Below are positions 8,792-35,838 of a stretch of 64,000 nucleotides of DNA, one piece after another. Each line of letters starts with the position of its first letter. Within the stretch, counting starts at the first letter, position 1. The position numbers were made by a program, and so were the translations under genes. Under the pieces are notes generated by a model, which made no database searches, had not been told where the DNA came from, and saw only the letters and a program-made list of their open reading frames with translations. The stretch covers positions 314,143-378,142 of the forward strand of contig LDJB01000003.1 of the NCBI GenBank assembly GCA_001028815.1, written 5' to 3'. The DNA comes from Peptococcaceae bacterium 1109 (GTDB lineage: Bacteria; Bacillota; Limnochordia; Darwinibacteriales; Darwinibacteriaceae).

Positions 8792-8835
8792 TGGCTGTGT
8801 AGGTTCTCTTAACAATACGCATATGAGGTGATTCC

Positions 8836-15270: not shown

Positions 15271-16620
15271 TTGGGCGTTATCCAAAAGAAGTTTAAGATC
15301 GGGTTGGCTACCTTTGCCCAACCAACATTCGATGTCTCGTGGGCGGAGAGCGTCCGGACGAGGACCCTTGATACTTTAGAACAGCTAGGCGTTGAAGTGG
15401 TCGCCTTCCCCCGTCCCCTCATGTACGAGCAGGAAGCGCTAGAATTCCGGGATGCCCTGCGTCAAGCAGATGTCAGCGCGGTTTTCCTCCAGTGCGCGGG
15501 GTTTAGCTTTGGGGGGCTGCCGGTGATCATCTCTACCGGTGTGGATGTACCCTGCATCATCTGGGCAACACCGGAGCCAGAATGGACCGGAGATGTGATC
15601 CGCAGCAACTCTCTCTGCGCGGGAATCATGCACAACAGCCACCTAAAGCGGGCAGGCGTCGATGCTAAGTTCATCTTCGGTAATCCGGAAGAAATGGTGG
15701 ATGAACTAAAGGCGCTTATCAAAGCCCTGCGGGCAATCACGTATCTGAAGAATTCCAAGCTGGGGATCGTGGGCTACCGGGCCCCAGGTTTCTACGTCTC
15801 TGGCCATAACGAAATGAAGCTCCATGCGGAGCTTGGTGTGCAGACATTCCATGTGGATCTATCTTCTGTCACAGGGGAAGTGGAACGGATCGCTGATGAG
15901 GCCGCTGAAGAGGTCATCCAGCGCTATGGCTTCACGCTAGCCGAAAATGTGGTGGAAAACAGAGCCGCGCTGCTGAAGACTGTGAAGGTCTATCTGGCCT
16001 TGCGCAAGATTGCGGAGGAGAAATCTCTGGACATCCTGGCAGTCAAATGCTGGCCCGAGTTCCCCTTTGAGCAGGGAGTCAGCGTATGCCTGGCTCTGTC
16101 CCTCCTCAACGACAACGGCATCATCACCGCTTGTGAGGGGGATGCCTACGGTGCAGTAACTATGCTTATTCAGGACCTTCTTGGCGAAGGGCCCGAGTTC
16201 TTCAACGATATCATTCAAATTGATGAGGACAACAACCACATGCTGTTCTGGCACTGCGGTTCCGCAGCTGCTTGCCTCAAGGCACCGGAGGCAGATATCC
16301 TGGTCCGGCCCCATGGTATGCAGAAGAAAGTAGGTGCCGTGAACTTCCCCCTGAAACCTGGACGAGTGACTGTGAGCCGCCTCACTGAACAAGGAGGCAG
16401 CTGGAAGATGTTCGTTGCCACTGGAGAGGCCGTGGATACCCCCATGCTGCTGCAAGGCAACCCATCGCTGGTCAAGATGGATGCTCCAGTAAAGAGAATA
16501 CTAGATACCATCCTTGAGGAAGGGTTCGAGCACCATCATTCTACCATCTACGGTGACATTTCCCGGGAACTGCAGTGGTTCTGTGAGCTTATGAACATGG
16601 AGATGGTGAAGCCTGAGTAG
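15271..16620 (+). CDS. L-fucose/L-arabinose isomerase-family sugar isomerase
   Basis: 449 residues, matching the FucI/AraA-like fold: an N-terminal Rossmann-like domain with LQCAGFSFGG, a central domain, and a C-terminal region with WPEFPFEQG, then CEGDAYGAV, where Glu and Asp probably bind manganese, and later HCGSAAA. The family interconverts aldoses and ketoses. The start is a TTG with GAAAGGTGAG upstream. Its neighbours on the same strand include a GH51 arabinofuranosidase and a CUT1 importer, so L-arabinose is the most likely sugar, though true AraA is about 500 residues and L-fucose or another pentose remains possible. Confidence 0.78.
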   Translation: MGVIQKKFKIGLATFAQPTFDVSWAESVRTRTLDTLEQLGVEVVAFPRPLMYEQEALEFRDALRQADVSAVFLQCAGFSFGGLPVIISTGVDVPCIIWATPEPEWTGDVIRSNSLCAGIMHNSHLKRAGVDAKFIFGNPEEMVDELKALIKALRAITYLKNSKLGIVGYRAPGFYVSGHNEMKLHAELGVQTFHVDLSSVTGEVERIADEAAEEVIQRYGFTLAENVVENRAALLKTVKVYLALRKIAEEKSLDILAVKCWPEFPFEQGVSVCLALSLLNDNGIITACEGDAYGAVTMLIQDLLGEGPEFFNDIIQIDEDNNHMLFWHCGSAAACLKAPEADILVRPHGMQKKVGAVNFPLKPGRVTVSRLTEQGGSWKMFVATGEAVDTPMLLQGNPSLVKMDAPVKRILDTILEEGFEHHHSTIYGDISRELQWFCELMNMEMVKPE

Positions 16621-16631: not shown

Positions 16632-17831
16632 CTACAGCAGTTCTTTCTCTAATATAGCTGTGGCAGCACCCACTACCCCTTGGTAGTTTCTAAAGGTGGC
16701 ATTGCTGAACTTGAACTTGGGCTGGTCGAAACAGTGGGCGTAAGTGCTTTCCTCTATCCAGCCTCGGGTCGTGGGAGACAACGCAAAGGCGTTTCCGCTG
16801 AACACGATCTGCGTCGGCTGGATGATGTTGACCAGATTGGCAAGGCCTATGCCTAAGAAAGCCGCGGCTTCCCGGAGTACGCTTTGAGCCACCTCATCGC
16901 CATCAGCAGCCAAGCGCACGATGATGTTCACGGTAAGGTTTTCTGGAGGGACTGGCAAGGCCGAGTTGGGTGCAGAAAGGGAGCGCTGCAAGTAGGTGCC
17001 CACAATGGCCCGCTCGGAGATGAGGGCTTCTAAGCACCCCCGCTTGCCACAGCTGCACATCGGGCCGCCTGGCAAGATGGTACAATGGCCAAACTCCCCT
17101 GCCCCGTTGAAAGAGCCTTGCAGGAGGCCTAGCTTAGGCAGGACGATTCCGCAGCCCACACCGTAACCCACCTGCACCAAGATGATGCTCCCTGAGTTGC
17201 GGGCCCGGCCAAACCATTCTTCGCCCAAGGCCATCAAGCGGACGTTGTTGTCCACGATCACAGGGCTCCCCAACTGCTGCACTAGAAGGTCCTTGACATT
17301 GACGTTGCGCCACCCCAGGTTGGGAGCGAAGCGGCTGATGCCGGAGTCCGTATCTACCAGGCCCGTTACCGCGACACCAATACCCACGATGCGGGTTCCC
17401 TGGGCAGCTAGTTTAGCTTCCTGCCGCCTGTAGAAGGCAACGCTTCTGTGGATCACATCGTCGACAGTGGTCTTGCTGCTGATCTCTACGACTTCTGTAT
17501 CCAGCAGCTTGCCCAGGAGATTGACCGTGCCCATCCGGAGCCGGCTGACACCGATCTCCACGCCGATGGCCGCGTGAGATTTCCCCGCCACCTTTAAGAG
17601 GCTCGGTGGCCGGCCAGCCCCTTCCCGCTTCCCATTGACTGGGCCAAGCTCGGTAAGGATGCCATCCTCCAAGAGGATCTTGGTCAAACCCGAAACAGCG
17701 GGCGGTGTAAGCCCTGTAAGGCGGCACAGCTCAGAACGGGAAACGGGGCCCTGCTGCAGCACGGTGCGGATGATCTGCCTGATGTTGCTGTCTTTCATTT
17801 CCGATTGGTTTCGTACACTCAAGTCCCTCAC
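16632..17831 (-). CDS. ROK-family transcriptional repressor (XylR/NagC-like)
   Basis: 399 residues. A winged helix-turn-helix occupies about residues 15-65 (SRSELCRLTGLTPPAVSGL). It is followed by a ROK sugar-binding domain with GVEIGVSRLRMG, VTGLVD, and the zinc motif CSCGKRGCLE near residue 270, preceded by GEFGH. It probably represses the divergent importer and arabinofuranosidase genes until an inducing sugar binds. The GTG at 17831 has only a weak ribosome site, and a TTG at 17822 is possible. It converges on the sugar isomerase gene with a gap of 11 bp. Confidence 0.9.
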   Translation of the reverse strand: MRDLSVRNQSEMKDSNIRQIIRTVLQQGPVSRSELCRLTGLTPPAVSGLTKILLEDGILTELGPVNGKREGAGRPPSLLKVAGKSHAAIGVEIGVSRLRMGTVNLLGKLLDTEVVEISSKTTVDDVIHRSVAFYRRQEAKLAAQGTRIVGIGVAVTGLVDTDSGISRFAPNLGWRNVNVKDLLVQQLGSPVIVDNNVRLMALGEEWFGRARNSGSIILVQVGYGVGCGIVLPKLGLLQGSFNGAGEFGHCTILPGGPMCSCGKRGCLEALISERAIVGTYLQRSLSAPNSALPVPPENLTVNIIVRLAADGDEVAQSVLREAAAFLGIGLANLVNIIQPTQIVFSGNAFALSPTTRGWIEESTYAHCFDQPKFKFSNATFRNYQGVVGAATAILEKELL

Positions 17832-18268
17832 CCAGATCCAATAATTGAGAACATCTGTTGCTATTGTGTTCGCTAAGCCTAAGCAGATCCCTTTTCAATG
17901 TCCGGGGCAAATATTATTCTCTGAAAATAAAAGGAGTTAAACTGAGTGTGAAGAAATGTTGTGGTAAGCAGGCATTCGAACATCTGTCCTAACAGAAACC
18001 GGTGGTAGATCTACATATATTTAGCTGGGCAAACCCTCATCTGCGCTGGGCAGGAAGGACGATTCGATGAAATCCCTGCTCGCAGGGGCTCTCTCCCCGG
18101 ATTATTGCGAGCGAAAAACTAATTGGTTGAAGTACCCCTTGAAATCCCAGTGGGTACCGATAGGACAAATCGCGGAAAGAAAGAAGGTGATCAGCGGATA
18201 GATTTCTTGCAGTTCATCACATTTAGCCCCCGTTGCAGCACAACAATTACTGGTCGAGGAGGTTCACA
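17832..18268. promoter_or_regulatory. Divergent regulatory region between the ROK gene and the CUT1 importer
   Basis: This 437-bp gene-free region must hold both promoters. The 10-bp word GAACATCTGT occurs twice in direct orientation (17849-17858 and 17978-17987), a possible ROK binding element. A nested inverted repeat lies at 18078-18112. TTGAAA at 18139-18144 is a possible -35 for the importer, with only a poor -10. Confidence 0.4.
18078..18112. promoter_or_regulatory. Nested inverted repeat (structured leader element)
   Basis: GCTCGCA (18078-18084) pairs perfectly with TGCGAGC (18106-18112). Directly inside, GGGG (18085-18088) pairs with CCCC (18095-18098), giving an 11-pair stem interrupted by a 7-nt bulge (GGATTAT) on one side. 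The strand then runs into GAAAAA. Confidence 0.45.
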
Positions 18269-19483
18269 ATGAAACGGAAAATCTTAGTGTTCTTGGTATT
18301 AGCTTGCGTGCTTATGACCGCGAGCACAGCCATGGCGAAAACTGTGTCCATCACCTTTAGAGACTTGTTCAGCGGCCCCGATAGTGACTTGATGGACGAG
18401 ATGGTAGCGAAGTTCAACGAGCTGCATCCTCACATCCACGTAGAGCGGCAGCTGACCACTTGGGATAACTACTACGACCAACTGCAGCTGGCCATCGGCA
18501 GCGGCCAAGCCCCTGACCTGGCAGTGGTACACACCAGATGGCTTCCTGCTTTTGCAGCCCGTAACGCCCTGGTTCCCCTGGATGAGTATGTACAAAAGGC
18601 CGGCCTTTCCAGTGAAGCTTTCATAGAAGCGGCTTGGAACGGCGGCTTCTACAAAGACGTCCAGTACGGCATTCCCCTAGACATTATCGTATCTGTAGTC
18701 CTCTTCTACAACGAAGACCTCATGGCGCAAGCGGGCATTGAGAATCCGCCCACCAACATGGAAGAGTTCATCAGCTACGCACAGCAGATTCAAGAGAAAA
18801 CCGATGCTTGGGGCGTTATCCTCCCCGGCGGCTACGCAGCTTACCGCAACTTCTTCTCCACCCTGTATCAAGCAGGTGCTAGCGTTGTCAACGAGGAAGG
18901 TACTGCAGCTAACTTCAATAACGATGCTGGCCGGGCTGCCTTGCAGTTCTGGGTAGACCTCTATCACAAGTACCAAGTAGCACCTCTCGATGTTACTCAG
19001 CCGTTGGAGGCGTTCCGTCTCGGGCGCGGCGGGTTCTATGTAGATGGCGTGTTCAACAGCCCCGGCCTCGATGCCCAAGAGGACCTGAACTACGGCGTGA
19101 CCACCATTCCAGCATTCTTCAACAACAACCGGTCGTTCTTTGCAAACTCCCACAACTTCGTCATTCCTAGGCAGCGCCGCCTCGACCCAGAGAAGGTGGA
19201 AGCAGCTATGGAGTTTGTGAACTGGATGGTCCGCAATACACACAACTGGTCCGCAGTTCCTTCCCTCATCGAAGTCACCGAGACTGAGGAAGTGCTGAAC
19301 TCAGCACGGGGCCAAGTCTTGGAACAGCTGCCAGACCTGGTATACCCACCGGCATTGATTGATATCGGCCGGGTTGAAACAGCGATTCAGGAAGCAATGG
19401 AAGCGGCCCTGCAGGGTGACATCGATGTTGCCACTGCACTGGAACGGGCCGAAGCAGAAGTGAACAGCATTCTCGGTAGATAA
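18269..19483 (+). CDS. CUT1 sugar ABC importer, substrate-binding protein
   Basis: About 404 residues with a signal peptide (MKRKILVFLVLACVLMTAS, cleavage near AMAK). The mature protein begins VSITFRDLFSGPDSD and has the family 1 extracellular solute-binding pattern, including GSGQAPDLAVVHTRWLPAFA, GIPLDIIVSVVLFYNED and WAFE-like helices. The ATG at 18269 is chosen because GAGGAGG lies 6 nt upstream; the frame runs open to 18233 without support. Permease genes follow after a perfect hairpin, then the GH51 enzyme, so arabino-oligosaccharides are the probable cargo. Confidence 0.9.
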   Translation: MKRKILVFLVLACVLMTASTAMAKTVSITFRDLFSGPDSDLMDEMVAKFNELHPHIHVERQLTTWDNYYDQLQLAIGSGQAPDLAVVHTRWLPAFAARNALVPLDEYVQKAGLSSEAFIEAAWNGGFYKDVQYGIPLDIIVSVVLFYNEDLMAQAGIENPPTNMEEFISYAQQIQEKTDAWGVILPGGYAAYRNFFSTLYQAGASVVNEEGTAANFNNDAGRAALQFWVDLYHKYQVAPLDVTQPLEAFRLGRGGFYVDGVFNSPGLDAQEDLNYGVTTIPAFFNNNRSFFANSHNFVIPRQRRLDPEKVEAAMEFVNWMVRNTHNWSAVPSLIEVTETEEVLNSARGQVLEQLPDLVYPPALIDIGRVETAIQEAMEAALQGDIDVATALERAEAEVNSILGR

Positions 19484-19492
19484 TCTTCTAGC

Positions 19493-19519
19493 GGCACCGG
19501 GAGCAGTGTTCCCGGTGCC
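19493..19519 (+). promoter_or_regulatory. Perfect 10-bp hairpin after the binding-protein gene
   Basis: GGCACCGGGA pairs with TCCCGGTGCC across a 7-nt loop, 9 nt after the stop. No T-run follows, which fits a stabilising intercistronic stem or partial terminator. Confidence 0.6.
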
Positions 19520-19554
19520 CTACTCCACCATACCGGGGCAGGAGGCGTTTAAGC

Positions 19555-20442
19555 GTGGCCAAGGCCAAACGGTCATTTTACCGCTCATTCAAAGAGAATC
19601 TTACTGGTTATATGTTTGTCTTACCCTACTTTTGCTTCTTCGGCCTATTCACCCTTTATCCAATTCTGCAGGGCTTTTTTATGAGCCTCACCGAACGTGA
19701 TATCTTCGGCTTCGACATAAGGTTTGTAGGGCTAAAAAACTACGCCCAAATGCTCACCGACCAGCGCTTCTGGACAGCGCTGAAAAACACAGCGTCCTTT
19801 ACCTTGATGGACGTGCCCACAAACGTGGTCCTTGCTATCTTACTGGCAACCTTGCTCAACAGGCATTTCCGGGGTAAGGAAATCTCCCTCTCCATGGTCT
19901 TTTTCCCGCGACTTTTGTCCATTTCTGTGATTGCCTTCATCTGGCTGTGGCTGTATGAACCGGAGTGGGGCCTTTTGAACCACTACTTGTCGTTCCTAGG
20001 TGTAGGGCCCATCAGCTGGCTGCGCAACCCATCGGTGGCCCTAAGAGCTGTGGTGGTGGCAACTGTCTGGTGGACAGTGGGGAACAACGTTGTGCTCTTT
20101 ATGGCGGGCATGCAGCAAATCCCCACAGAAGTATATGAAGCTGCGGAACTAGATGGTTCTGTTGGCTTGCACAGGTTTTTCAGGATCACCCTGCCGCTGC
20201 TCCGCCCCACGGCCCAGTTTGTTGTAATCATGCAGATCATTGCTAGTTTCCAAATCTTCGGCCAGGTCAACATCATGACTGGTGGCGGCCCTGCAGGGGC
20301 AACCCGCGTCCTGGTACAGTACATTTACGAAACAGGATTCAGCTATTTTGAAATGGGCTACGCTGCTGCCCTCTCTTACATCCTGTTCTTGCTGATTATG
20401 GTGGTTAGCGTGATTCAACTTGTGTGGCTAAGGGAGCGATAA
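19555..20442 (+). CDS. CUT1 sugar ABC importer permease (MalF-like)
   Basis: 295 residues, six predicted membrane helices, and an EAA loop (YEAAELDGSVGLHRF) near residue 190 that contacts the shared ATPase. The start is a GTG preceded by AGGAGG. It forms the transmembrane channel with the MalG-like protein encoded 2 bp downstream. No ATPase gene accompanies the system, which is common for Gram-positive CUT1 importers that share an MsmX-type ATPase. Confidence 0.92.
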   Translation: MAKAKRSFYRSFKENLTGYMFVLPYFCFFGLFTLYPILQGFFMSLTERDIFGFDIRFVGLKNYAQMLTDQRFWTALKNTASFTLMDVPTNVVLAILLATLLNRHFRGKEISLSMVFFPRLLSISVIAFIWLWLYEPEWGLLNHYLSFLGVGPISWLRNPSVALRAVVVATVWWTVGNNVVLFMAGMQQIPTEVYEAAELDGSVGLHRFFRITLPLLRPTAQFVVIMQIIASFQIFGQVNIMTGGGPAGATRVLVQYIYETGFSYFEMGYAAALSYILFLLIMVVSVIQLVWLRER

Positions 20443-20444
20443 AG

Positions 20445-21257
20445 ATGCGCAAGAAGCTGCTTGGAGCCTTTACGGTAGCCTTTGCTGTATTGTGGTTTTT
20501 GCCCGTTGTCTGGATGCTCATTACCTCTCTCAAATACGAGACAGATATTTTCCAACTCCCACCCATCTGGATCCCTTCCCGGATAACACTGGATCATTAC
20601 AAGGTGGTAATGGAGCGTTCCCATATTCTGCGGTGGTTCCTCAACTCTGTGGTGATCACCACCTGCGTCACTTTCCTCGTCCTCATTGTTGATTCCCTCG
20701 CGGCCTTTGCCTTTGCCCGGCTGCGCTTCTTTGGGCGGGATGTGCTGTTTAGCATTGTCCTTGCCAGTATGATGGTGCCGGGACAAGTAACCATTGTGCC
20801 CCTCTTTGCCCTGTTCTCTGATTTAGGACTGATCAACACCGCTCAGGCCGTTATCCTACCGCCCCTTGCAGGAGCGTTTGGCGTTTTTCTACTGCGCCAA
20901 TTCTTCCTCGGGATACCCCTCGAGCTGGAGGAATCAGCTATCATTGACGGATGCAGCAAACTGGGGGTACTGCGCCACGTTATCCTTCCCCTTTCCAAGC
21001 CTGGCTTGTCTGCATTAGCCATCTTTACAGCCCTAGGCTCCTGGAACAACTATCTCTGGCCCCTCATTGTACTGCAGGACCAGACAAAGATGACCCTTCC
21101 CGTCGGCCTCGCCACACTGCGGGGTACATACGCCACTTCCTCTTACGGTGTCTTGATGGCAGCCGCAGTGATCAGTTCTGTGCCGATCTTTGTGATGTTC
21201 GTGTTTATGAAGAAGTACTTCATCCAGGGTATTGCCCTTACCGGTGGAATGAAGTAA
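20445..21257 (+). CDS. CUT1 sugar ABC importer permease (MalG-like)
   Basis: 270 residues and six predicted membrane helices, with the EAA-type loop LEESAIIDGCSKLGVLRH near residue 163. The ATG at 20445 follows the MalF-like stop by 2 bp and has AAGGGAG upstream; a longer frame from 20424 would overlap the previous gene and lacks support. The C-terminus ends in the family-typical GIALTGGMK. It is followed by the arabinofuranosidase gene, so import and cleavage are probably coexpressed. Confidence 0.92.
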   Translation: MRKKLLGAFTVAFAVLWFLPVVWMLITSLKYETDIFQLPPIWIPSRITLDHYKVVMERSHILRWFLNSVVITTCVTFLVLIVDSLAAFAFARLRFFGRDVLFSIVLASMMVPGQVTIVPLFALFSDLGLINTAQAVILPPLAGAFGVFLLRQFFLGIPLELEESAIIDGCSKLGVLRHVILPLSKPGLSALAIFTALGSWNNYLWPLIVLQDQTKMTLPVGLATLRGTYATSSYGVLMAAAVISSVPIFVMFVFMKKYFIQGIALTGGMK

Positions 21258-21276: not shown

Positions 21277-23298
21277 ATGCAGCGCGACAAGGCAACCATC
21301 AACGTTTACTGTGATCACATCAAGGAAGGCCACCGCATCGATCCCTTCGTGTTCGGCCACTTCGTAGAAGACATCCGGGATCACATGGACGCAATGCTCG
21401 CTTATGTCCTGAAGGACATGGATTTCGAGCGGGAAGACGATAACAACGACGGCGTCTGCGGGTGCTGGTATCCAGTCAATCCAGGGAAAAACACATACTA
21501 CGCCTTAGAGCCCGCGGCCCGCTACCACTCTGGGCACAGCCAGCGGATTAGAATCAATCCCTCAGACCAAACCGCATCTGGCATTGGCCAACGCATCACT
21601 CTCCGGGGCGGAGTAGAATACAACGTCACGCTGTATGCCCGGAGCTCACCAGAGATAAAACGGATCCAGGTTCGCGTTGTTGACCTGGAAAGCCGTGAGT
21701 TCATCGCGAGCCGCACAGTGGCAATGGAAAGCCACGACTGGCGGGAATACTCCTTTACCCTGGAAATCCCACGAGACGTTCCTGCGGCAGAATTTCAGAT
21801 CGTCTACGTCCCCGATGGCTCCCGCTGGCCCGAACTCATCTCCAAGGGCAACCTCTGGCTGGACCACGTTTCCATGCTCCCAGAAGACGCAGTAGGCAAT
21901 GTGCGGCGGGACGTATTCGAGATGGCCAAACGGCTAAACGCAGGCGTTATGCGATTCGGCGGGAATGAAATCAGCGGCTACCACTGGCAGGACTACGTGG
22001 GCCCTTACTATGAGCGTCCCAGTAAAGTGAGTGAAGCCTGGGGAATGTGGGTTAACAAGTACTTCGGCACCGATGAGTTCCTACAGTTCTGCGAAGCTTT
22101 GGAAGTAGAGCCCTTGATCTGCATCAACGCGGGCACCGCTACCCCAGAAGAAGCCGGGGCTTGGGTAGAGTACTGCAACGGCAGCATTGATACGCCCATG
22201 GGCGCCCTCCGGGCCAAGCACGGCCACCCTGAGCCATACAATGTGAAATACTGGGAAATCGGGAACGAGATGTGGGGCCCGTGGCAGATTGGGCACTGCT
22301 CTGCAGAGGAGTTTGCCGAGCGCCATCTGGCCTATGCCAAAGCCATCAAGGAAGTTTACCCTGAGGCCATCCTCCTTGCTTGCGGGCACCGGATCATGGA
22401 CTGGAACATCCCCCTATTGGAGAAGTGCGCAGACACCATCGATTACCTAACGCTCCACATTTACCACGGATTCTCTGACCTAGGCTCCTTTGATATGGAG
22501 CCAGAGGATGCGTTCAGGGGAATCGTGGCCTATCCTGAGGTGACAAGGTATCACCTGCAAGAACTTGGCGAAATGCTGGAGAAAAATCCGAACCTCCACC
22601 ACATCAAGCTGGCCATCACCGAGTACAACACTATGTACTATCCCAACACCAGAAGGGTGGGCACCCCCAGGGAGCACACTTTGGAGGCAGCGGTGGCGAA
22701 CGCGGCGAACCTCAACGAGTTCCTGCGCTGGGCGCACTTGGTGAAGATGGGGCACTTCTCTGACCTCGTCAACGGCTGGCAAGGCGGCTGCATCCGAGTG
22801 GGCGATGTCATTGCGGACCAGACCCACGGGCCCAAGCGCCCCTGGAACAGCAACCACCTTACTGTTTACGGGACGCCAACCTATTACGCCCTAGAGCTCT
22901 ACGCCAATCGGCCCATCGATTATGTCCTAAAACACGAGGCTGCGGGGCCCTCATTCACGGTGAACGCGCCAAACTATGTGAAGCGAATAGGCACTAACCC
23001 CATTCCCGTTGTGGATACAGTGGCGTGCATCAATGAAGGCCAAGATACAGTGACCCTCTTTATGGTGAACCGGGGGCTTGAGGACTTGGATGTGGAAATC
23101 ACCTTAGACTCCTTTGAGGTTCAGGGCAAACCTGAGGTTTCGGTAATCACGGGGGAGAGCCTCTATCTGGTTAACGATGCAGCATCCCCAGAAAAGGTGG
23201 TAACCCGGACCTATGAATTGGAGAGCCTTGAGGACTTGGCTGTCCTGAAAGCCCATACCATCTACGCCCTGACAGTCCGGGGCAAGGTTATCCGCTAA
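21277..23298 (+). CDS. GH51 alpha-L-arabinofuranosidase with internal carbohydrate-binding-like domain
   Basis: 673 residues without a signal peptide, so it acts in the cytoplasm on imported oligosaccharides, releasing terminal L-arabinofuranose. Residues about 60-205 look like an inserted beta-sandwich carbohydrate-binding module. The GH51 catalytic domain follows, with MRFGGNEISGYHWQDYVGP, the acid/base glutamate of WEIGNEMWG (near residue 331) and the nucleophile glutamate of ITEYNTMY (near residue 449). The C-terminal beta domain completes the enzyme. It is translated from an ATG with GGAGG upstream. Other GH51 activities (endoglucanase, xylosidase) are less likely. Confidence 0.9.
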   Translation: MQRDKATINVYCDHIKEGHRIDPFVFGHFVEDIRDHMDAMLAYVLKDMDFEREDDNNDGVCGCWYPVNPGKNTYYALEPAARYHSGHSQRIRINPSDQTASGIGQRITLRGGVEYNVTLYARSSPEIKRIQVRVVDLESREFIASRTVAMESHDWREYSFTLEIPRDVPAAEFQIVYVPDGSRWPELISKGNLWLDHVSMLPEDAVGNVRRDVFEMAKRLNAGVMRFGGNEISGYHWQDYVGPYYERPSKVSEAWGMWVNKYFGTDEFLQFCEALEVEPLICINAGTATPEEAGAWVEYCNGSIDTPMGALRAKHGHPEPYNVKYWEIGNEMWGPWQIGHCSAEEFAERHLAYAKAIKEVYPEAILLACGHRIMDWNIPLLEKCADTIDYLTLHIYHGFSDLGSFDMEPEDAFRGIVAYPEVTRYHLQELGEMLEKNPNLHHIKLAITEYNTMYYPNTRRVGTPREHTLEAAVANAANLNEFLRWAHLVKMGHFSDLVNGWQGGCIRVGDVIADQTHGPKRPWNSNHLTVYGTPTYYALELYANRPIDYVLKHEAAGPSFTVNAPNYVKRIGTNPIPVVDTVACINEGQDTVTLFMVNRGLEDLDVEITLDSFEVQGKPEVSVITGESLYLVNDAASPEKVVTRTYELESLEDLAVLKAHTIYALTVRGKVIR

Positions 23299-23368: not shown

Positions 23369-24811
23369 CTAGATCTTGTCATCTTCCATCATCAAGTGTA
23401 CGCCCGCCAATTTGAATGTCTTAGGCAAAGCCAAGATCCTGGGCGTTTTACCCACATACTTCTCTGCGTCCCGTAAGGCCTCCTCAAAGGTTGCCCTGGT
23501 CTTCATTCCCATGCTTCTGGCATAGCCAGGCTCGTAAGCTCCCACAATGTAAACTGCGGCCGCTTCCTTCTCCGCGATATGCCCGCAGGAAATCATGGAA
23601 AAGGCATGGTATGGATGGTACCCGAAGCCATAGCGGTACTTGTCCACATACTCCTGTTTCCGGGCCAGGTATTCCCCGTATTTACTGCAGTCAGGCAAGA
23701 CGTTGTGGTAGTCCTTCTGGAACAGCTCGTACAGCTCCCGGTAGGACGGGAACTCCTCATCGTGGAAATAGCCGTTGCAGATGGAAGAGCAAATCACCAC
23801 GAAGTTGTCGTTCATCACCCTGCGGTGGCGAATGATGTTCGCCGCAATGGCCTGCATAATCAAAATAGGGTTGGTGCCGTGGCCATTGCCGTAGTGGAAC
23901 TCCTGGGGCATGCCGAAGATCATGATGTCAAACTTCTCTTTCGCCCAGGGGATGTAGGTCCGCTTGTTCGCAACTTCCCAGGAGATGGGCTGCAGCATCT
24001 CTGTATCGCCTGCAAAGACAGCGATCTGCCGCTGGTAAGAATCGAGGACCGCGTCCACGGTGAAAAACTTCCTGCCCATGCACTTTTCCATGTGCTTGCC
24101 GATGGCGTCGAACTTCTTCCGCATCAGGCTGTGGTGGCTCACGGGCGTAAAGTCATCCCGATGCATCACTTCAGGCACATGGTGGCAGGCGATGCTCTCC
24201 CACGTGGTAATACCGGTGGCCACGTGCTTGTACCCGCCAGAATAGCCTCCGTAAGGATTCCCCAAGGTATGGCCGATGGACACAGCCAAGTCTGCCTCAA
24301 ACACCTCTTTGTTCATAATGACCCGGTTGCCCAGCTCATCAAAGCCCAGGTCAATGAGGTTATCCCAGTCTTCTGAATCGTGGCAAGTGATGTTGTTCAG
24401 GGGTTTGAACATGCTGTAGATCTTCTCCCCCAAAATCCGCTTCAGCTCAGCATCGGTCATTTTCCGGTGCAGCCCATTTGAGCAAATCAGCCTGATGTCC
24501 TTCTTGTCCACACCAGCCTTCAGGCATTCCTCTACCACGATGGGAATCGCGGTCTTGCGGTGGGATGTCTCCTGAAAGCCGCCTTTGACCTTGTCGGGGA
24601 AGATAATCACAACCTTCGAGCCTAGCCCAACCAAGTTGGCGATGGGTTCCATGCCCATGGGGTTGAGAATAGCCTCCCTGGTAGCGCCCTCAATGTCCTC
24701 TAGGACTGGCGGATCGGGCACCGTCTCCCCGGGAATAAAGACTTCTGTACGGTCCCCGGGAAGCACTGCGCTCATGGTACCTTGCCCGTATTCAAAGTCC
24801 AGCTTAATCAC
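23369..24811 (-). CDS. LarA-family nickel-dependent 2-hydroxyacid racemase
   Basis: 480 residues, related to lactate racemase LarA, which uses a nickel-pincer nucleotide cofactor. The conserved elements are present: GLHRKMTDAEL, a histidine in IGHTLGNPYG, the pincer-attaching lysine in GGYSGGYKHVATG (near residue 195), and a following CHHVPEV. No larB, larC or larE cofactor genes lie in the window. LarA homologues act on several 2-hydroxyacids and sugar acids, so lactate is only one option. The GTG start at 24811 has GGAGG upstream and overlaps the end of the triose-phosphate isomerase gene by 8 bp, implying coupled translation. Confidence 0.85.
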   Translation of the reverse strand: MIKLDFEYGQGTMSAVLPGDRTEVFIPGETVPDPPVLEDIEGATREAILNPMGMEPIANLVGLGSKVVIIFPDKVKGGFQETSHRKTAIPIVVEECLKAGVDKKDIRLICSNGLHRKMTDAELKRILGEKIYSMFKPLNNITCHDSEDWDNLIDLGFDELGNRVIMNKEVFEADLAVSIGHTLGNPYGGYSGGYKHVATGITTWESIACHHVPEVMHRDDFTPVSHHSLMRKKFDAIGKHMEKCMGRKFFTVDAVLDSYQRQIAVFAGDTEMLQPISWEVANKRTYIPWAKEKFDIMIFGMPQEFHYGNGHGTNPILIMQAIAANIIRHRRVMNDNFVVICSSICNGYFHDEEFPSYRELYELFQKDYHNVLPDCSKYGEYLARKQEYVDKYRYGFGYHPYHAFSMISCGHIAEKEAAAVYIVGAYEPGYARSMGMKTRATFEEALRDAEKYVGKTPRILALPKTFKLAGVHLMMEDDKI

Positions 24812-25736
24812 CTTGATAACCTCCTCTGCCCTTCACGTATTCAGCGACGATCTCCAGCAGCCCCTCTGGTTCAAACCCGATCTGGCCTGTAAAGCGCGTC
24901 AGGGCCACAAGCCCTCCATCAACGGCGGCGAGGCCTCCGAGCATGGCCGCGTTCTCCTTCTTGAGCCCTCCGCCGTAGACTACAGGAATGGTGAAACCAA
25001 ACTCCTCCTGGACAATCTCCTTGATAAGTTCCGCAACATAAGCAATGTAGTCCCCATCGGGAGGAGTTTTACCCGGCCCGATTGCCCAGATGGGCTCATA
25101 GCCAATGACCATTTCCCGGTTCGCGATGTATGCCTCTGCGCCCCGCAAGCTTTCCACCACTTGGGTGCGCAGGGCCGCCTCAACCCGAGGCTTCTGTTCC
25201 GCGAGGGTGCCCCCTCCCCGTTCTTCGGCCGTCTCGCCCACGCATACCAGGACGTTTAGCCCTGATTCCAGAGCCCGCAGCACTTCTGCGTTAATGATCT
25301 GGTTCACAGCACTCTTGGCCCTTTGCCCCAGTGTGGAATCGCTGACGATCTCTGGCGCAAAGCTCTGCATCACTTGGAGTTTATCCCGGCGTTCTTCTGA
25401 ATGGCCAATAATGCTCCACGAACACCCCAAGTTCCGGGCAGCATTTGCAGGGAGGTTTGCGGTAAAGGCGCCGAAGTTCCCCCCAGGGGTAATATTCTCC
25501 CGGAAAACCCCCTGGCAGCCCACGGCAAAGGCCCCCTGGGCAGCTGCCACCGCAGCGGGGATAAGTGCCTCCGGCACGAAAAAGGTAAGGCGCACATCCT
25601 TCCTGTCCCCTAGCCCCAGTTCCTTACACCGCTGCAAAGCGTCTTTCATCCAAGCAACTGGATCGCTTTGAGGGCACACTCCTCCGAGTTCCCGGGGCAC
25701 CTCAAAGCGCTTGAGGTTTACAAAAATGTCTCCCAC
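24804..25736 (-). CDS. tpiA: Triose-phosphate isomerase (long form)
   Basis: Interconverts dihydroxyacetone phosphate and glyceraldehyde 3-phosphate. The N-terminal lysine appears in FVNLKRF (near residue 9), the catalytic histidine in IGHSEER (near residue 112), and the catalytic glutamate in GYEPIWAIGPGKTP (near residue 214), followed by the mobile loop and YGGG. The protein is about 310 residues, some 60 longer than usual, with much of the excess before the histidine. The GTG at 25736 is preferred because AGGAGG lies 8 nt upstream. The gene follows the ADP-dependent kinase by 4 bp. Confidence 0.88.
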   Translation of the reverse strand: MGDIFVNLKRFEVPRELGGVCPQSDPVAWMKDALQRCKELGLGDRKDVRLTFFVPEALIPAAVAAAQGAFAVGCQGVFRENITPGGNFGAFTANLPANAARNLGCSWSIIGHSEERRDKLQVMQSFAPEIVSDSTLGQRAKSAVNQIINAEVLRALESGLNVLVCVGETAEERGGGTLAEQKPRVEAALRTQVVESLRGAEAYIANREMVIGYEPIWAIGPGKTPPDGDYIAYVAELIKEIVQEEFGFTIPVVYGGGLKKENAAMLGGLAAVDGGLVALTRFTGQIGFEPEGLLEIVAEYVKGRGGYQGD

Positions 25737-25740
25737 TTTC

Positions 25741-27198
25741 TCACCCTCCTTGTGTAACGCCAATCACTTCCGCGGCATAGCTGCTGGAGGAAATGGTGTC
25801 CCCCATACCCACAGTGATCACTGGGTTAGGCACGATATGTGCTGGCACCAGCAAGATGTAGTGGCTGTCTAGTTCTGCTATGCCTGTCCGCACAAACTCC
25901 TCCACATCTAGGGGCGGGCATTCCCTTTCCTTTAGTTCCTCGGCAAATGCCTTGAGCTGTTCCAAGCCAATGCTGGACAGAGGAAGCTTTGCAGCCTCAG
26001 GGAGTTCTTCCCTCTTGACCATACCCCCATGCATTGCCTTGCAAGCATTGACGCCTGAGCCAAAGAGGCATGCCTGGCGCACTCTCTCTACTGGATAGGG
26101 GTAAGGCTTGGCGAGGACAAGGACGTAGTAACCTAGGTTGTGGACGTGGACCCGTTCTAGTCCGAACCGCTCTCTTAAGGCTAAGGCTCCCCTATACAAA
26201 GCGTAGGCACGCTCCCTCTCCCGTACTTCTTCAGCAAGGTCTTCCAGTCCGAAGGAGCTCAGCACCTTGGCGATCTCTGTCTCATTGATCCCGAAGCTGT
26301 CCACCCCCTGAGTAAGGGTGGTGAGCATTTCCATCTCCAGCTCGGGCTCTTTCGCGGGCACGTATTCCAGGTGAATTTTCAAAGCGGCGTTCCCCTCACG
26401 GAGTTCCCGAAGTGCAGCGAGGCTTCCTTGGAAGTACGCTGTCCTGGCAGCGTGATCTTCCGGTGCTGGACCGCCAAGGTGGTATCCTGCCACAAAACCC
26501 ACATCGCACTTTTCGCCCAAGGAGCCCAAGTAAGGATTGAGCTCTGGGGCGAAGTTGTATCCCAAGCCGGGAATCCGCTTCACTAAGATGATCCGGTTTG
26601 CCCGAGGCGTGACCACTTCGGTGAAACCGAAATCAAACCGTTCTCCCTTGCCGTACTCAAACACCCACGGAGAGTGGGTGGGGTCCCCTTCCCGCACACA
26701 TCCCTGCACTGGCTGAAGCTCCAAACATCCATCGGTGACCGCAGGGTAGAGAACCCGTGGATCCATCACAGCACCTAGGCGGGGAGACAGTATGGGCGAG
26801 TAGAGGACAGACCTTGCCCCCAGGGCTGCCATCTGGTTGGAGATTATCCCCGCCTGCCCCCCCAGCTTGTCGGTGGTCTCCTCGAACTGCTCCTGCAGCC
26901 AGCTCATGACTTCCCCATTTTCGCACTGCACAAAAAGGGATTTACCCCCCCGGAGGCCATCAACTAAAAGGGCAACAAAATCCTCCCTGGAGCGGACAAC
27001 CCCAACTGAGCTTGCGGACTTCCTCTCCATCTCGGCCCTGTCCAGATCTGGGTTGCTGGCCACCAGGTTGCGGACCGCCTTGTTGGTGAGGTTCACGATC
27101 ACGTCCACATTGGCGTTAAACCCCGCAAAGGTCGTCCCCTGCCACGATTGCTTCAGTAGTGCGTCGGATAAGTATCTCTGCCAAATCTGTTCCGTCAT
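25741..27198 (-). CDS. ADP-dependent phosphofructokinase/glucokinase family sugar kinase
   Basis: 485 residues of the ADP-dependent branch of the ribokinase superfamily, which uses ADP rather than ATP to phosphorylate fructose 6-phosphate or glucose and is known mainly from archaea. Seen here are AGFNANVDV near the N-terminus, GGQAGIISNQMAALG, the NxxE motif as NETE (residues about 305-308) and the catalytic GxGD as GMGDT (aspartate near residue 467). Its place between class II aldolase and triose-phosphate isomerase genes favours fructose-6-phosphate as substrate. The ATG at 27198 overlaps the aldolase stop as ATGA. A related sugar phosphate remains possible. Confidence 0.85.
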   Translation of the reverse strand: MTEQIWQRYLSDALLKQSWQGTTFAGFNANVDVIVNLTNKAVRNLVASNPDLDRAEMERKSASSVGVVRSREDFVALLVDGLRGGKSLFVQCENGEVMSWLQEQFEETTDKLGGQAGIISNQMAALGARSVLYSPILSPRLGAVMDPRVLYPAVTDGCLELQPVQGCVREGDPTHSPWVFEYGKGERFDFGFTEVVTPRANRIILVKRIPGLGYNFAPELNPYLGSLGEKCDVGFVAGYHLGGPAPEDHAARTAYFQGSLAALRELREGNAALKIHLEYVPAKEPELEMEMLTTLTQGVDSFGINETEIAKVLSSFGLEDLAEEVRERERAYALYRGALALRERFGLERVHVHNLGYYVLVLAKPYPYPVERVRQACLFGSGVNACKAMHGGMVKREELPEAAKLPLSSIGLEQLKAFAEELKERECPPLDVEEFVRTGIAELDSHYILLVPAHIVPNPVITVGMGDTISSSSYAAEVIGVTQGG

Positions 27199-28079
27199 CT
27201 TAACACTTCCCTGTTCTGTGCTGGTGCTTTCCACCGTCCGCCTTGGCCTGAGCATCCCAGCAGCTGCATTTTTTTCCTAGCCAGCTCCTTAACTGCTTCC
27301 CGCGCTGCTCCTAGAGTAGCCGGGGGTTCGCAGGAATCTGTCTCACCGAGCCTTGCCCGTAAGGCATTGGTAAAGGCAATTTTCAAGTCCGTGGCCACAT
27401 TGTACTTCCAAATACCAAGGGCCACCGCCCGGCGGACGTGTGCGTCGGGGATATCCGAGCCGCCGTGAAGCACGAGAGGCACCTCTACCCGGCCCTTGAT
27501 GGCCGCAAGGCGTTGGAAATCAAGGTCAGCGGGCTGTTGATACAAACCATGCCGATTGCCAATGGAAACAGCCAGGGCATCTACCCCTGTCTCTCTCACA
27601 AAGGCCTCTGCCTGTGCTGGGTCGGTGAGGAGGTCTTTGGATACCTGCAGATCATCTTCCACTCCCGCAATGGCCCCCAGCTCTCCCTCAACAGAAACAG
27701 CCGCGGCGTGGGCGATCTCCACCACTCGGCGGGTCTGGGCCACATTCTCCTCATAAGGTAAGTGGGAACCATCAAACATCACAGAGGTAAAGCCTGCTTG
27801 AATCGCTCGCACGATAAGCTCCAGGTCTTTCGCGTGATCAAGGTGGAGGACGACAGGCAAATGGGTATCCTCCGCGGCATACTTGCAGACTGCGGCCATC
27901 CACCCTAATCCGCAGTATTTGCTCATCCCTGCCCCAACCATAAGGATGACCGGTGCGTTCTCCGCTTCCGCAGCCATCATTACCCCTTGAGCATACTCCA
28001 GATTGTGCACGTTAAACGCAGCGACAGCAAAGTGAGTGTCGTACCCGTTATAGAGCTCTTTTAGTGATAGTAGTGCCAT
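27195..28079 (-). CDS. Class II fructose-bisphosphate/tagatose-bisphosphate aldolase family
   Basis: 294 residues. Class II (zinc) aldolases cleave ketose 1,6-bisphosphates to triose phosphates. The motifs FAVAAFNVHNLE, the zinc-ligand segment LHLDHAKD (near residue 79), EGELGAIAG, and LHGGSDIP with the following NVATD phosphate site are all present. The size fits the Fba/GatY/KbaY group. A Shine-Dalgarno AAGGGGTGG precedes the ATG. It is the first enzyme gene behind the ROK regulator, and its stop overlaps the start of the ADP-dependent kinase gene. Stereochemistry (fructose or tagatose) cannot be told by eye. Confidence 0.9.
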   Translation of the reverse strand: MALLSLKELYNGYDTHFAVAAFNVHNLEYAQGVMMAAEAENAPVILMVGAGMSKYCGLGWMAAVCKYAAEDTHLPVVLHLDHAKDLELIVRAIQAGFTSVMFDGSHLPYEENVAQTRRVVEIAHAAAVSVEGELGAIAGVEDDLQVSKDLLTDPAQAEAFVRETGVDALAVSIGNRHGLYQQPADLDFQRLAAIKGRVEVPLVLHGGSDIPDAHVRRAVALGIWKYNVATDLKIAFTNALRARLGETDSCEPPATLGAAREAVKELARKKMQLLGCSGQGGRWKAPAQNREVLR

Positions 28080-28100: not shown

Positions 28101-29294
28101 TTAGTGAGCGAAGTATTCCAATTCCGGTTCCGCAAAGAGCTTCTCACCCATCATGGCCACAGTCCCTAGGAGGACAGGATCTTGCAAGCTGGAGAACTCA
28201 ATTTGCACTTGCTGGGCGATGCTTGGGTTTAGGCGCTCCCTAACGGCGCTTCGAATGCTTTCCAGCCACAGGCCGCCGCAGAATAACATCTCCCCATGGA
28301 TAGTGACCAGCTCTGGGTTGAAGGTATAAACAAGGTTCACGATCCCGCAGCCGAGGTACTTCCCACTCTCGATAATTAAGTCCTGAAGTTCGCGATTTCC
28401 ACTGCTTGCTTGTTCTACCACCGCCTCTAGGCCTAAGTCATCTGTGTTGCCTAACGTCTTGCGGGCCTTCCGGACTAAAGCCAGGGAAGAGCAATAAAGT
28501 TCGAGGCATCCCCTGTTGCCGCACTCACATTGGGGCCCGTCCCAGTCAATACTGGTATGGCCGATCTCCCCTGCAAGGCCATAGGCACCATAGAGGATTT
28601 GCCCATTAACGATTACGCCCGCGCCTACCCCTTTGCTCGCAAGGATTGAGATGAGGTTATCCCGCCCCTGGCCCTTCCCCAGCCAGTGCTCGGCAAGGAC
28701 GGCCGAGTTAGCGTCCTCGTTCATGACCACCGGGTAGCTAAAGCGTTCTGCAAGGTAGTCCTTGATGGGCACATTCGTCCAGCCTGGGGCGTTGGTGAGG
28801 TAGGATATGCGCCCCAGAACGAGGTTGGTGGGCCCAGGCACGGAAACACCGATGCCGACTATGCGGAACCTGTTTCCGTACTCGTCAATATACCTTTGAA
28901 TGGACTGGGAGAGCCTTTCCAGGACCGCACTGGGCGGTTCGTCTAAATCAAATGCCATTTTGCTCTGTGCCACAATCTTGCCGCTCAGGTCCGCAATGGC
29001 GCTGGAGACTAACCCTCGCTGGATGGTCACTCCGATCACCAAGAAGCGCTCAAAACAGATGCGCAGGGGGACAGCGTTCTTCCGGTTCAGGCCTGTATAG
29101 GCGTGATCTTCTTCTACTAGCCCCGCGTCGATCAAATCCCGAATGATGTTTGTGACTGCCGCACCGGTCAGTCCACTGAGCTCTGCCAGATCCTTGCGGC
29201 AGATATGCTTGTTTGCCTTTAGGAGTTTGAGCAGTGTTGAGCGGTTCTCAACTTGGATCTGCACTTTGTTCTTGCCACGTTCGCGCCCGTTCAT
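28101..29294 (-). CDS. ROK-family transcriptional repressor
   Basis: 397 residues. The N-terminal winged helix-turn-helix covers about residues 15-70 (CRKDLAELSGLTGAAVTNII). The ROK domain follows with VSVPGPTN, NEDANSAVLAEHWLG, GEIGHTSI and the zinc motif CECGNRGCLE near residue 258. It lies 21 bp ahead of the aldolase gene on the same strand, so it is probably the first gene of the glycolytic cassette and autoregulated. A perfect palindrome at 29373-29393, about 80 bp upstream, is the obvious operator candidate. The inducer is unknown. Confidence 0.9.
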   Translation of the reverse strand: MNGRERGKNKVQIQVENRSTLLKLLKANKHICRKDLAELSGLTGAAVTNIIRDLIDAGLVEEDHAYTGLNRKNAVPLRICFERFLVIGVTIQRGLVSSAIADLSGKIVAQSKMAFDLDEPPSAVLERLSQSIQRYIDEYGNRFRIVGIGVSVPGPTNLVLGRISYLTNAPGWTNVPIKDYLAERFSYPVVMNEDANSAVLAEHWLGKGQGRDNLISILASKGVGAGVIVNGQILYGAYGLAGEIGHTSIDWDGPQCECGNRGCLELYCSSLALVRKARKTLGNTDDLGLEAVVEQASSGNRELQDLIIESGKYLGCGIVNLVYTFNPELVTIHGEMLFCGGLWLESIRSAVRERLNPSIAQQVQIEFSSLQDPVLLGTVAMMGEKLFAEPELEYFAH

Positions 29295-29372: not shown

Positions 29373-29393
29373 GATTAATTAAGTTAATTAATC
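29373..29393. promoter_or_regulatory. Perfect 21-bp AT palindrome, likely ROK operator
   Basis: GATTAATTAA, a central G, then TTAATTAATC, a perfect odd-length palindrome. ROK operators such as those of NagC and XylR are AT-rich inverted repeats of about this length. Position between the ROK start and the upstream terminator supports control of the cassette. Confidence 0.6.
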
Positions 29394-29423: not shown

Positions 29424-29447
29424 AAAAAACCCCAGCACTGGCTGGGG
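29424..29447 (-). terminator. Factor-independent terminator of the 16-kb operon
   Basis: On the minus strand CCCCAGC pairs with GCTGGGG across a 4-nt loop, followed by six T (29429-29424). It lies 44 bp past the Gfo/Idh stop. Confidence 0.8.
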
Positions 29448-29490
29448 CTATTTCTTGAATCTCTATGGAACCTAGCTATGGCAGTCCTTC

Positions 29491-33900: not shown

Positions 33901-35178
33901 TTAGTTCTCCCTGAGGTGCCTAATTGCCCGCAGGAAGAAGTCAGGTTTGCCAAAGCTCCCTGATTTCAGCACAAACAGGCGGGGGTCTTCCGCCAATGAA
34001 TAGCAGGACGGGAGCCCCGGCTCAATTTCATGCCAGACACGCATCCCCCGGATCCCCAGGGCACTGCAGACCGCATCGGACGTTTCGCCGCCCGCAACCA
34101 AAAACCGGGACAGCCCTGTCCTATGAAGGCATTCTGCAGTCACATAGGCCAAACCTTCCGATACCAACTTCCCCACTTGAGTGCTGGTGAGCCCCTGGCG
34201 GGCCCCGATTTCCCGAGTTCTTGCAATCTTCTCCGGGGCAGAGCTGGAATAGAGCACCACATCGTCCCCTTGGAGCAGGCGTCCGCTGATCCACTGAATC
34301 AGCGGCGCGCAAACAGCCTCACGGTCTTCTGTTTCCAAGAGGTCCACTGTATCCAGCTCATAGGCGGCCAAGCCGTGCTCTATGGCGCAGGCCGTTTGCT
34401 CCCGGCTTTGGGGCATCAAGCTCCCAACGGTGCACAAGATTCCCAGGCCTTCTTGCTTGGCCAGGGGCAGGTGCCCCCTTCCCGCGGGAGTGGGGCCCAG
34501 CACCTTAGGCAGCTCTTCCCCTAAAGCGGAGCTCCCGCACAAGACATAGCGGTCCTGAACCGCCTGCGCGATGATCCAGAGAGAGTCTTGACCTGTAACG
34601 TCCAAGATAACGTAGTTGTAAAGGGCCCGGCTTTCCTCCAATGCCCGGCTTAAAGCCTCTGGGCCCCCATCTACCACTGTATGGCCAATCAGGCCAACCT
34701 TGCGCTTTGTCTGCCCTGCAAGGATATTCACCAAGTTAGACTCGTGCATAGGATGGATAGGATCGTGCTTAAACTCCGACTCCGCGAGGGGGACGCCCCA
34801 CACAGAGTGAACCCCGTTGCAGGTGGTGCGGCCATTCTTAGGAAAACCCAGCACCACCACGGCAAATTCTTCTCCAAGCTCGTCCAGCATAGCATCGAAC
34901 TCTGCGCCGATGTTGCCCCGGAACACCGAACACGTCTTATTGAAAAACAGGCTGCAGCCCGCGGCCTTCAGCCTTCTCGTTGCGTGCCGCACTTTCTCAT
35001 AGGCCGTTTTCGCACTGTCCAGGCGGGAGTTGGTGTTCAGAATGAGGACATCCGGTTTACCGTACTTAAAGTCCAGGGGGGCATCGTAAGGGTAGATGTC
35101 CGCAGTGTACCCACCGTTAGTGAACATGATGCCGATGTCGTTGGAGCCGGTAATATCATCTGCGCTGATACCAATCAT
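33901..35178 (-). CDS. Four-carbon acid sugar kinase family protein (DUF1537, OtnK/DtnK-like)
   Basis: About 425 residues. The N-terminal signature ISADDITGSNDIG matches the family's ADD-x-TG-x-D substrate domain. The C-terminal nucleotide domain ends with VAGGETSDAVCSAL, the GGETS motif. Characterised members phosphorylate L-threonate, D-threonate, D-erythronate or their 3-keto forms. The ATG at 35178 is chosen because it overlaps the preceding stop as ATGA; a GTG at 35190 sits too close to AGGAGG. The gene before it is an OtnC-like aldolase, exactly the expected partner. Which acid sugar is used is unknown. Confidence 0.85.
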   Translation of the reverse strand: MIGISADDITGSNDIGIMFTNGGYTADIYPYDAPLDFKYGKPDVLILNTNSRLDSAKTAYEKVRHATRRLKAAGCSLFFNKTCSVFRGNIGAEFDAMLDELGEEFAVVVLGFPKNGRTTCNGVHSVWGVPLAESEFKHDPIHPMHESNLVNILAGQTKRKVGLIGHTVVDGGPEALSRALEESRALYNYVILDVTGQDSLWIIAQAVQDRYVLCGSSALGEELPKVLGPTPAGRGHLPLAKQEGLGILCTVGSLMPQSREQTACAIEHGLAAYELDTVDLLETEDREAVCAPLIQWISGRLLQGDDVVLYSSSAPEKIARTREIGARQGLTSTQVGKLVSEGLAYVTAECLHRTGLSRFLVAGGETSDAVCSALGIRGMRVWHEIEPGLPSCYSLAEDPRLFVLKSGSFGKPDFFLRAIRHLREN

Positions 35179-35834
35179 GCCCTGGGCCACTCCCTCCTTG
35201 GTTTATACCCCGACTCCCTTAGAAACTCTGCCACAAGCTCTGGGGAAAGCCCTGGCACGGCAATGCCGGCAGCTTTGGAGGCCACATACAGCCTGCTCGT
35301 GACCTCAAAGGTTTGCATGGCCGTATATGCCTCAGATAGGTTAGTGTCCAAGGCAAGGATGCCGTGGTTATCCAGGATGAGCAGGTTGGCTTTCTGAGCA
35401 TTGGCACCCACAGCTTCCGCCAGTTCCTTTGAGCCGGGATGGTGATAGGGCACCCGGGCTACTCGCTCCAGGTAGTACATGTTTTCCACAAACCAGCTGG
35501 CGGGCACCTCTTCGCAGCTCACCGCCATAAGCAGCCCATAGAAAGGATGGGAATGGACGACGGCGTTTACATCTGGCCTGGCCGCGTACACCGCACCGTG
35601 CATGGGCGCTTCCTTGGAAGGCCTGCGCCCCGCAGCGCGCAGGACTTCACCTGAGAGAGAGCACTCCACAAAATCGCTGTCCTGCAGATCGCCCAAGGAT
35701 GCCCCGCTCCCCGTGATCAGAAAGCTCTCGGGCCCTGTCCGGACACTGATATTCCCGCCATTTCCCCATACCAGCCCGTCAGTGAGCATCTGCCTGCCCA
35801 GACGCTGCAATTCATGAATGGCTTTTACATCCAT
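35175..35834 (-). CDS. Class II aldolase/adducin-family protein (OtnC/FucA-like)
   Basis: About 219 residues. Zinc-dependent aldolases of this group cleave L-fuculose or L-ribulose phosphates, or decarboxylate 3-keto-tetronate 4-phosphate (OtnC). Visible motifs are GNGGNISVR near the N-terminus, ITGSGASLGDL, the acidic KEAPMHGAVYAARPD, the zinc-ligand HSHP near residue 95 and DNHG near the C-terminus. The true start is the ATG at 35834, 4 nt after the GH38 stop; the longer frame lies within the mannosidase gene. Pairing with an OtnK-like kinase suggests acid-sugar degradation to dihydroxyacetone phosphate. Confidence 0.85.
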   Translation of the reverse strand: MDVKAIHELQRLGRQMLTDGLVWGNGGNISVRTGPESFLITGSGASLGDLQDSDFVECSLSGEVLRAAGRRPSKEAPMHGAVYAARPDVNAVVHSHPFYGLLMAVSCEEVPASWFVENMYYLERVARVPYHHPGSKELAEAVGANAQKANLLILDNHGILALDTNLSEAYTAMQTFEVTSRLYVASKAAGIAVPGLSPELVAEFLRESGYKPRREWPRA

Positions 35835-35838
35835 GCCC

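Follow-up and report, generated by a model that had tools for sequence, protein, structure and literature searches.

ADP-dependent sugar kinases are known in three specificities: phosphofructokinase (PFK), glucokinase (GK) and bifunctional. The contacts of the PFK form have been described for AncMsPFK, in whose complex with fructose 6-phosphate (F6P) the phosphate is contacted by N32, N34, E90, K179, N181 and Q244; K179A and N181A raise the KM for F6P about 1,000-fold and about 200-fold, respectively, and T. litoralis glucokinase has His at position 181 (PMC7948494). In Firmicutes, the sulfo-EMP2 pathway combines SqvD with a PF00365 kinase and a PF01116 aldolase (PMC9594981), and an independent study of two single-histidine LarA genes, from other Firmicutes, reports that genes for TIM, PFK and FBA adjoin them (PMC12611868). 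Here, we describe a locus of Peptococcaceae bacterium 1109 that places a kinase of the ADP-dependent family in a gene cassette that also encodes a class II aldolase and proteins related to TIM and LarA; the window is the whole 64,000-nt stretch of DNA that was analysed. We propose, with a probability of about one half, that the enzyme is a PF04587-family ketose 1-kinase with a pocket unfit for F6P, acting as the kinase step of a self-contained sugar pathway. Judged from sequence, the pathway substrate is most likely a ketose bearing a non-phosphate group at C6, for which 6-deoxy-6-sulfofructose, as in a sulfo-EMP2-like pathway, is the leading single candidate, at odds below one in three.

The kinase and its operon

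The kinase frame runs from 27198 to 25741 on the minus strand, which the first-pass annotation had left unstated, and encodes 485 amino acids, its start at 27198 being backed by an ATGA overlap with the stop of the upstream aldolase gene. The protein is a full-length member of the PF04587 (ADP_PFK_GK) family with all catalytic motifs: residues 24–475 of 485 align with profile positions 4–429 of 430 at 200.7 bits (cut-off 27, E = 4.6e-59), and PF04587 is the sole Pfam family matched. Both motifs that the first-pass annotation had claimed, GMGD (464–467) and NETE (305–308), are present together with HLE (276–278), and the profile search that it had proposed as a way to expose an ATP-dependent PfkB enzyme upheld its family assignment. 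The kinase keeps the catalytic D467, R202 (R206 of AncMsPFK), H276/E278, N305/E308 and H353, and in the alignment the family signature (GxGD, NxxE, HxE, R206 and H360) is complete. Among PDB sequences it comes closest to ADP-dependent PFKs (6c8z, E = 8e-66; 1u2x, E = 8e-58), and with an AlphaFold model built from a 33-row alignment (mean pLDDT 94.5, pTM 0.92), all of the first 22 Foldseek matches were structures of the ADP-dependent PFK/GK family. From its motifs, ADP is the probable phosphate donor. The genes and sites of the locus are as follows.

15271–16620, plus strand: SftI/SqvD-like sugar isomerase of the L-fucose/L-arabinose isomerase superfamily; 58% identity to the isomerase beside the L081 kinase
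16632–17831, minus strand: second ROK-family regulator (profile)
18233–21257, plus strand: sugar ABC transporter, binding protein and two permeases (sequence inspection and homologues, no profile search)
21277–23298, plus strand: GH51-like hydrolase, alpha-L-arabinofuranosidase clan (profile); a fragment of a protein of this kind adjoins the isomerase in L081
23369–24811, minus strand: LarA-like protein of the single-histidine subfamily, related to PDB 9q2u/9q3j
24804–25736, minus strand: TIM-like protein, GTG start at 25736; N/K, H and E motifs kept, loop 7 YGGS changed to YGGG and loop 8 GGAS to ALTRF
25741–27198, minus strand: P181-subclade kinase of the PF04587 ADP_PFK_GK family, with H for K179 at residue 175 and P for N181 at residue 177 (profile, alignment, model)
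27195–28079, minus strand: class II ketose-bisphosphate aldolase, PF01116 (profile); ATGA overlap with the kinase start
28101–29294, minus strand: ROK-family regulator, first gene of the unit (profile)
29373–29393, no strand: perfect 21-bp palindrome GATTAATTAA-N-TTAATTAATC, a candidate operator upstream of the ROK gene
29428–29449, minus strand: terminator-like hairpin that parts the kinase unit from the upstream operon

As the first-pass annotation had supposed, the gene belongs to an operon: it is the third of a coupled minus-strand unit in the order ROK regulator, class II aldolase, kinase, TIM-like protein and LarA-like protein. The TIM-like and LarA-like genes overlap by GTGATTAA, and the Shine–Dalgarno sequence of the TIM-like gene (AAGGAGG) overlies the kinase stop. 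No palindrome such as the one ahead of the ROK gene is expected by chance in the window, and a second copy was not found near the isomerase or transporter genes. The aldolase, with a family-level PF01116 score of 323 bits, is nearest to tagatose/fructose-bisphosphate aldolases and keeps the Arg of its C-terminal AREAVKE stretch. The isomerase was traced by querying the genome with the isomerase that adjoins the L081 kinase; the one NCBIfam model that it matches is SftI (sulfoquinovose isomerase), where it scores 263 bits and the cut-off is 700, so we regard it as related to SftI and do not assign it, and a PDB search with it gave no match. The genome also encodes canonical PfkA, canonical TIM and other class II aldolases, and the cassette is therefore not needed for ordinary glycolysis; the idea that the kinase replaces a missing PfkA was rejected for the presence of PfkA.

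The gene content suggests the step order isomerase, ketose 1-kinase, class II aldolase and C3 processing. The SftI/SqvD-like isomerase would convert an imported aldose to a ketose, the kinase would phosphorylate this ketose at C1, with ADP as the probable donor, and aldolase cleavage of the resulting ketose 1-phosphate would yield DHAP and an aldehyde of three (or two) carbons. This aldehyde would then be processed by the TIM-like protein and, in a putative role, the LarA-like protein.

Elsewhere in the window, a second class II aldolase gene overlaps an FGGY-family kinase gene (38289–40722), forming another kinase–aldolase pair. A 3-oxo-tetronate-kinase-like gene likewise overlaps the next open reading frame (33901–36026), which at 35175–36026 looks like its class II aldolase-type partner; GH36 and alpha-mannosidase-like genes lie nearby.

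Family tree and sugar pocket

The 2.7-Mb genome (11 contigs) holds three PF04587 paralogues, the window copy included. The family was matched in 30 of 40 relatives (29 above the cut-off) and in 27 of 398 sampled Bacillota genomes (23 above it). In a 92-row tree (LG+C20, SH-aLRT support), the window kinase falls in a seven-sequence group (support 99.7), the P181 subclade, which is rare and patchily distributed and lies within a 68-row bacterial clade. This clade groups with the archaeal PFK references on a branch of length 2.22; these references are five only, some of them reconstructed ancestors, which places the age of an ancient transfer beyond the tree's reach. Most copies from the relatives fall in a Limnochordia-wide clade adjoining the archaeal ADP-phosphofructokinases.

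The first-pass annotation was right about the kinase family and about a bacterial host, here of the Limnochordia (Bacillota), but the phylogeny that it called for does not bear out its idea of lateral acquisition when this is taken as one recent event that brought an ADP-PFK/GK gene from archaea into bacterium 1109. That the family is best known from archaea and the P181 subclade patchy would suit such a transfer. The kinase is, however, nested in a bacterial clade on a long branch, and a recent archaeal import is therefore unsupported; the three paralogues and the spread through the lineage likewise led us to reject it, and the GC content around the gene (0.56–0.57) is the same as that of its surroundings, leaving this explanation with hardly any probability. 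If the new substrate proposed here holds, it would show that bacteria diversified the ADP-dependent kinase family on their own.

Several other family members are of separate interest. One paralogue of the window genome, of the N181 type (L061, G000:C2:252852-254186), neighbours genes for an alanine-racemase-like protein, an amidase and a diadenylate cyclase, with no sugar genes, and the other (L062) adjoins a PfkB kinase and a DEAD helicase. A close relative (L088, 9998–11434) reads GMGA for GMGD, which removes the catalytic Asp; its frame is intact apart from this change. Four genomes (G012, G028, G030 and G032) have PF04587 kinases and lack a PF00365 phosphofructokinase, so that an ADP-dependent PFK may carry glycolysis there; other species of their genera have both families.

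The homologues were aligned to AncMsPFK, whose numbering is used for positions 179, 181, 183 and 212. K179, N181 and R212 are found in every one of the 60 PFK-like sister sequences, and a second set of 19 sequences has H181, the glucokinase letter. In the P181 subclade, by contrast, position 179 is Arg in six of seven sequences and His in the window copy, position 181 is Pro in all seven, and R212 is kept in three, including the window copy, and lost in four. A scan of all columns found exactly three that are diagnostic of the subclade against its sisters, 179, 181 and 183 (I183V), all within the F6P shell. Further changes (Y/H90 to L/F, A/G210 to V/T/I and Y/H245 to L/Q) make the pocket less polar, whereas the catalytic and nucleotide-site residues are unchanged, suggesting that the chemistry was kept while the sugar end was rebuilt. 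The window kinase also keeps D36.

By the family's specificity motifs, the window copy is probably neither PFK nor GK, the functions first proposed for it: K179/N181 (PFK) and H181 (GK) are both absent. The NCBIfam models agree, with the best of them, TIGR02045 (ADP-specific PFK), reaching 261.2 bits against a cut-off of 408.1, and the glucokinase models PRK14039 and PRK14038 scoring far under theirs (156.7 versus 387 and 117.4 versus 554 bits). An ordinary ADP-dependent PFK would convert F6P and ADP to FBP, with FBA and TIM taking the next glycolytic steps in a second, sugar-induced glycolytic module. This account draws on TIGR02045 being the best model, on the FBA and TIM-like neighbours, and on the retained R212 and D36. 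We nevertheless consider it improbable, given the shortfall in score, the loss of K179 and N181 throughout the subclade, the PfkA, TIM and aldolases encoded elsewhere, and a TIM-like protein without the phosphate loop 8 of TIM.

The kinase might instead act on another 6-phospho-ketose (tagatose-, sorbose- or psicose-6-phosphate, or similar) and supply a ketose bisphosphate to the aldolase. The Arg at 179 in six of the seven sequences, together with the kept N28, N30 and H240, could hold a phosphate in another pose; the window copy keeps R212, and the kinship of the aldolase and its AREAVKE Arg would also fit. However, R212 is lost in four of the seven sequences, the shell is less polar, and the conserved cassette has no gene that would form a sugar 6-phosphate, all of which makes this reading unlikely.

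Cassette recurrence and candidate substrates

The TIM-like protein keeps the catalytic Lys, His and Glu, but other residues stand in for two elements of its phosphate site, the Ser of loop 7 and the Gly-Gly of loop 8, both in the window copy and in each of the seven genuine TIM-like relatives that were aligned; loop 8 gives way to a conserved ALTRF-like stretch. The kinase and the TIM paralogue are thus both altered at a former phosphate-holding site. A sulfonate in place of the phosphate is one way to read these changes, and a deoxy sugar or pentulose another. The LarA-like protein aligns over about 476 residues with 9q2u and 9q3j (663 and 659 bits, E about 1e-197) and carries the GNPYGGYSGGYKH stretch common to LarA_Bw and LarA_Sp (the GNPYGG stretch). 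LarC was not found in the window genome, which is 96.75% complete, and is present in 9 of 11 searched genomes (ten with a full-length LarA-like gene and one with a fragment). At E below 1e-60, eight of the 398 Bacillota genomes, the window genome among them, encode a LarA-like protein; the TIM-like protein occurs in two genomes of the searched set of relatives, the window genome and G022. A plasmid search gave no match for the LarA-like protein and only partial TIM matches for the TIM-like protein. Literature searches found no paper linking sulfoquinovose with lactate racemase, or ADP-glucokinase with Limnochordia.

The cassette recurs with the kinase in other members of the P181 subclade. At L082, the kinase, TIM-like (56%), LarA-like (76%), ROK (59%) and aldolase (60%) genes form a single run, accompanied by an ABC transporter, a GH4 hydrolase and a SIS-domain protein. 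At L080 and L084 (genome G022) the kinase adjoins the aldolase, G022 carrying the TIM-like and LarA-like genes on a separate contig, and at L081 the isomerase, a LarA-like fragment and the kinase lie together. A class II aldolase lies within 2.5 kb of three of seven P181 copies and of none of 60 N181 copies (Fisher p 0.0007, indicative only, as the sequences are related). The GH51-like and LarA-like genes by the L081 kinase (7405–9800) are fragments of 170 and 114 amino acids, which suggests a decaying or misassembled cluster. In a second kinase–aldolase pairing in Bacillota, the H181-type (glucokinase-like) PF04587 genes L078, L058, L033, L145, L196 and L198 each have a gene for a class II aldolase within 2.5 kb.

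The TIM-like/LarA-like pair also occurs with other kinases. In unrelated Bacillota outside Limnochordia (G387 and the f27 genomes) it accompanies a PF00365 kinase, a PF01116 aldolase and a TauE exporter, with an NMT1-type ABC transporter nearby in G387. L178 adds DUF1634 to this set and has a lactaldehyde-dehydrogenase-like gene near the cassette; L179 and L180 share its layout. Within f27, the TauE of L177 and L178 was called by Pfam match and that of L179 and L180 by position and size, as was the PFK of L180, for which an alignment of PfkA-type kinases was also used. In G072 the pair stands with TctA/TctC, an SDR, two DapA-like aldolases and ASST. The loss of F6P ligands by PfkA-type kinases of these cassettes (R162 to Q/H, H249 to M/I) had been considered as convergent support; we dropped this argument because these residues are missing from further PPi-type PFKs of the class as well.

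The sulfonate form of the proposed ketose 1-kinase, in which an ADP-family enzyme would replace SqiK on 6-deoxy-6-sulfofructose and the TIM-like and LarA-like proteins would act on sulfolactaldehyde, is a tentative special case. The SftI/SqvD-like isomerase in the window and at L081 points to it, as do the G387 and f27 cassettes, which hold the sulfo-EMP2 pair PF00365 and PF01116 plus TauE, and the NMT1-type transporter of G387; the conserved Arg in loop 8 of the TIM-like protein (ALTRF) and at kinase position 179 could bind a sulfonate. Against this, the isomerase lies far under the model cut-off, the hydrolase is GH51-like with no sulfoquinovosidase of known type seen in the cassette, no TauE scored above the cut-off in the window genome, and the TauE and NMT1 families are not specific for sulfosugars. 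The Arg179 of the other six sequences, moreover, is His in the window copy, whose less polar pocket could fit a deoxy sugar or a pentulose better.

A C1 kinase for such a sugar, a pentulose or a 6-deoxyketohexose (for example from L-arabinose, fucose or quinovose), is a second special case of the proposed enzyme. The aldolase would then release DHAP with glycolaldehyde or lactaldehyde. The isomerase superfamily, the arabinofuranosidase domain of the hydrolase, the lost phosphate-side residues with a more hydrophobic shell, and the lactaldehyde-dehydrogenase-like gene near the L178 cassette are consistent with this. It remains doubtful, since TauE in the other cassettes is left unexplained, Arg179 is conserved in six of seven sequences, and the TIM paralogue needs a role although canonical TIM is present.

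The ketose 1-kinase reading as a whole faces several of the same points, among them the sub-threshold isomerase score, the missing TauE and LarC, and the lack of a known sulfoquinovosidase in the cassette. Two P181 members, L095 and L103, have no cassette alongside, and at L182 the TIM-like slot is filled by a TSR/HIBADH/SLA-reductase group enzyme, whose score is highest for tartronate semialdehyde reductase (197 bits) and lower for sulfolactaldehyde reductase (172).

A more specific proposal, which we regard as quite unlikely, is that the ADP kinase was recruited to sulfofructose (or a C6-modified ketose) and that the TIM paralogue and the nickel-pincer LarA-like protein jointly convert the C3 product, which might be sulfolactaldehyde, with sulfite released. 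Were this true, the locus would represent an undescribed branch of sulfo-EMP-type glycolysis and give the orphan single-histidine LarA subfamily its first pathway. The ketose 1-kinase, if confirmed, would extend the ADP-dependent family (PFK, GK and bifunctional) to a new substrate, and a sulfosugar substrate would add a new branch to the anaerobic sulfur cycle. The cassette would then also offer a concrete pathway context for single-histidine LarA proteins, whose structures are solved.

Comparison with known systems

The window kinase shares with archaeal ADP-PFK (TIGR02045; AncMsPFK 6c8z/6xio) the fold, the ADP site, the GxGD/NxxE/HxE/R206/H360 signature and D36, N32 and N34, at 25–29% identity to solved PFK-type structures. 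It differs in having His for K179 (His or Arg across the subclade), Pro for N181 and a less polar C6 side. The fold and nucleotide motifs are also common to ADP-dependent glucokinase, but the H181 of GKs is Pro in the window kinase.

The cassette resembles sulfo-EMP2 in having an SqvD/SftI-related isomerase and a PF01116 class II aldolase, which matches SqiA at the family level, with a kinase between them. In contrast to sulfo-EMP2, however, this kinase belongs to PF04587 rather than PF00365 (SqiK), TIM-like and LarA-like genes are added, and the isomerase falls under the SftI cut-off. The loci of the single-histidine LarA subfamily (LarA_Bw and LarA_Sp; PMC12611868) are alike in LarA sequence and in their TIM-, PFK- and FBA-type neighbours; in the window genome, where LarC was not found, the kinase slot beside the LarA-like gene is filled by an ADP-family enzyme.
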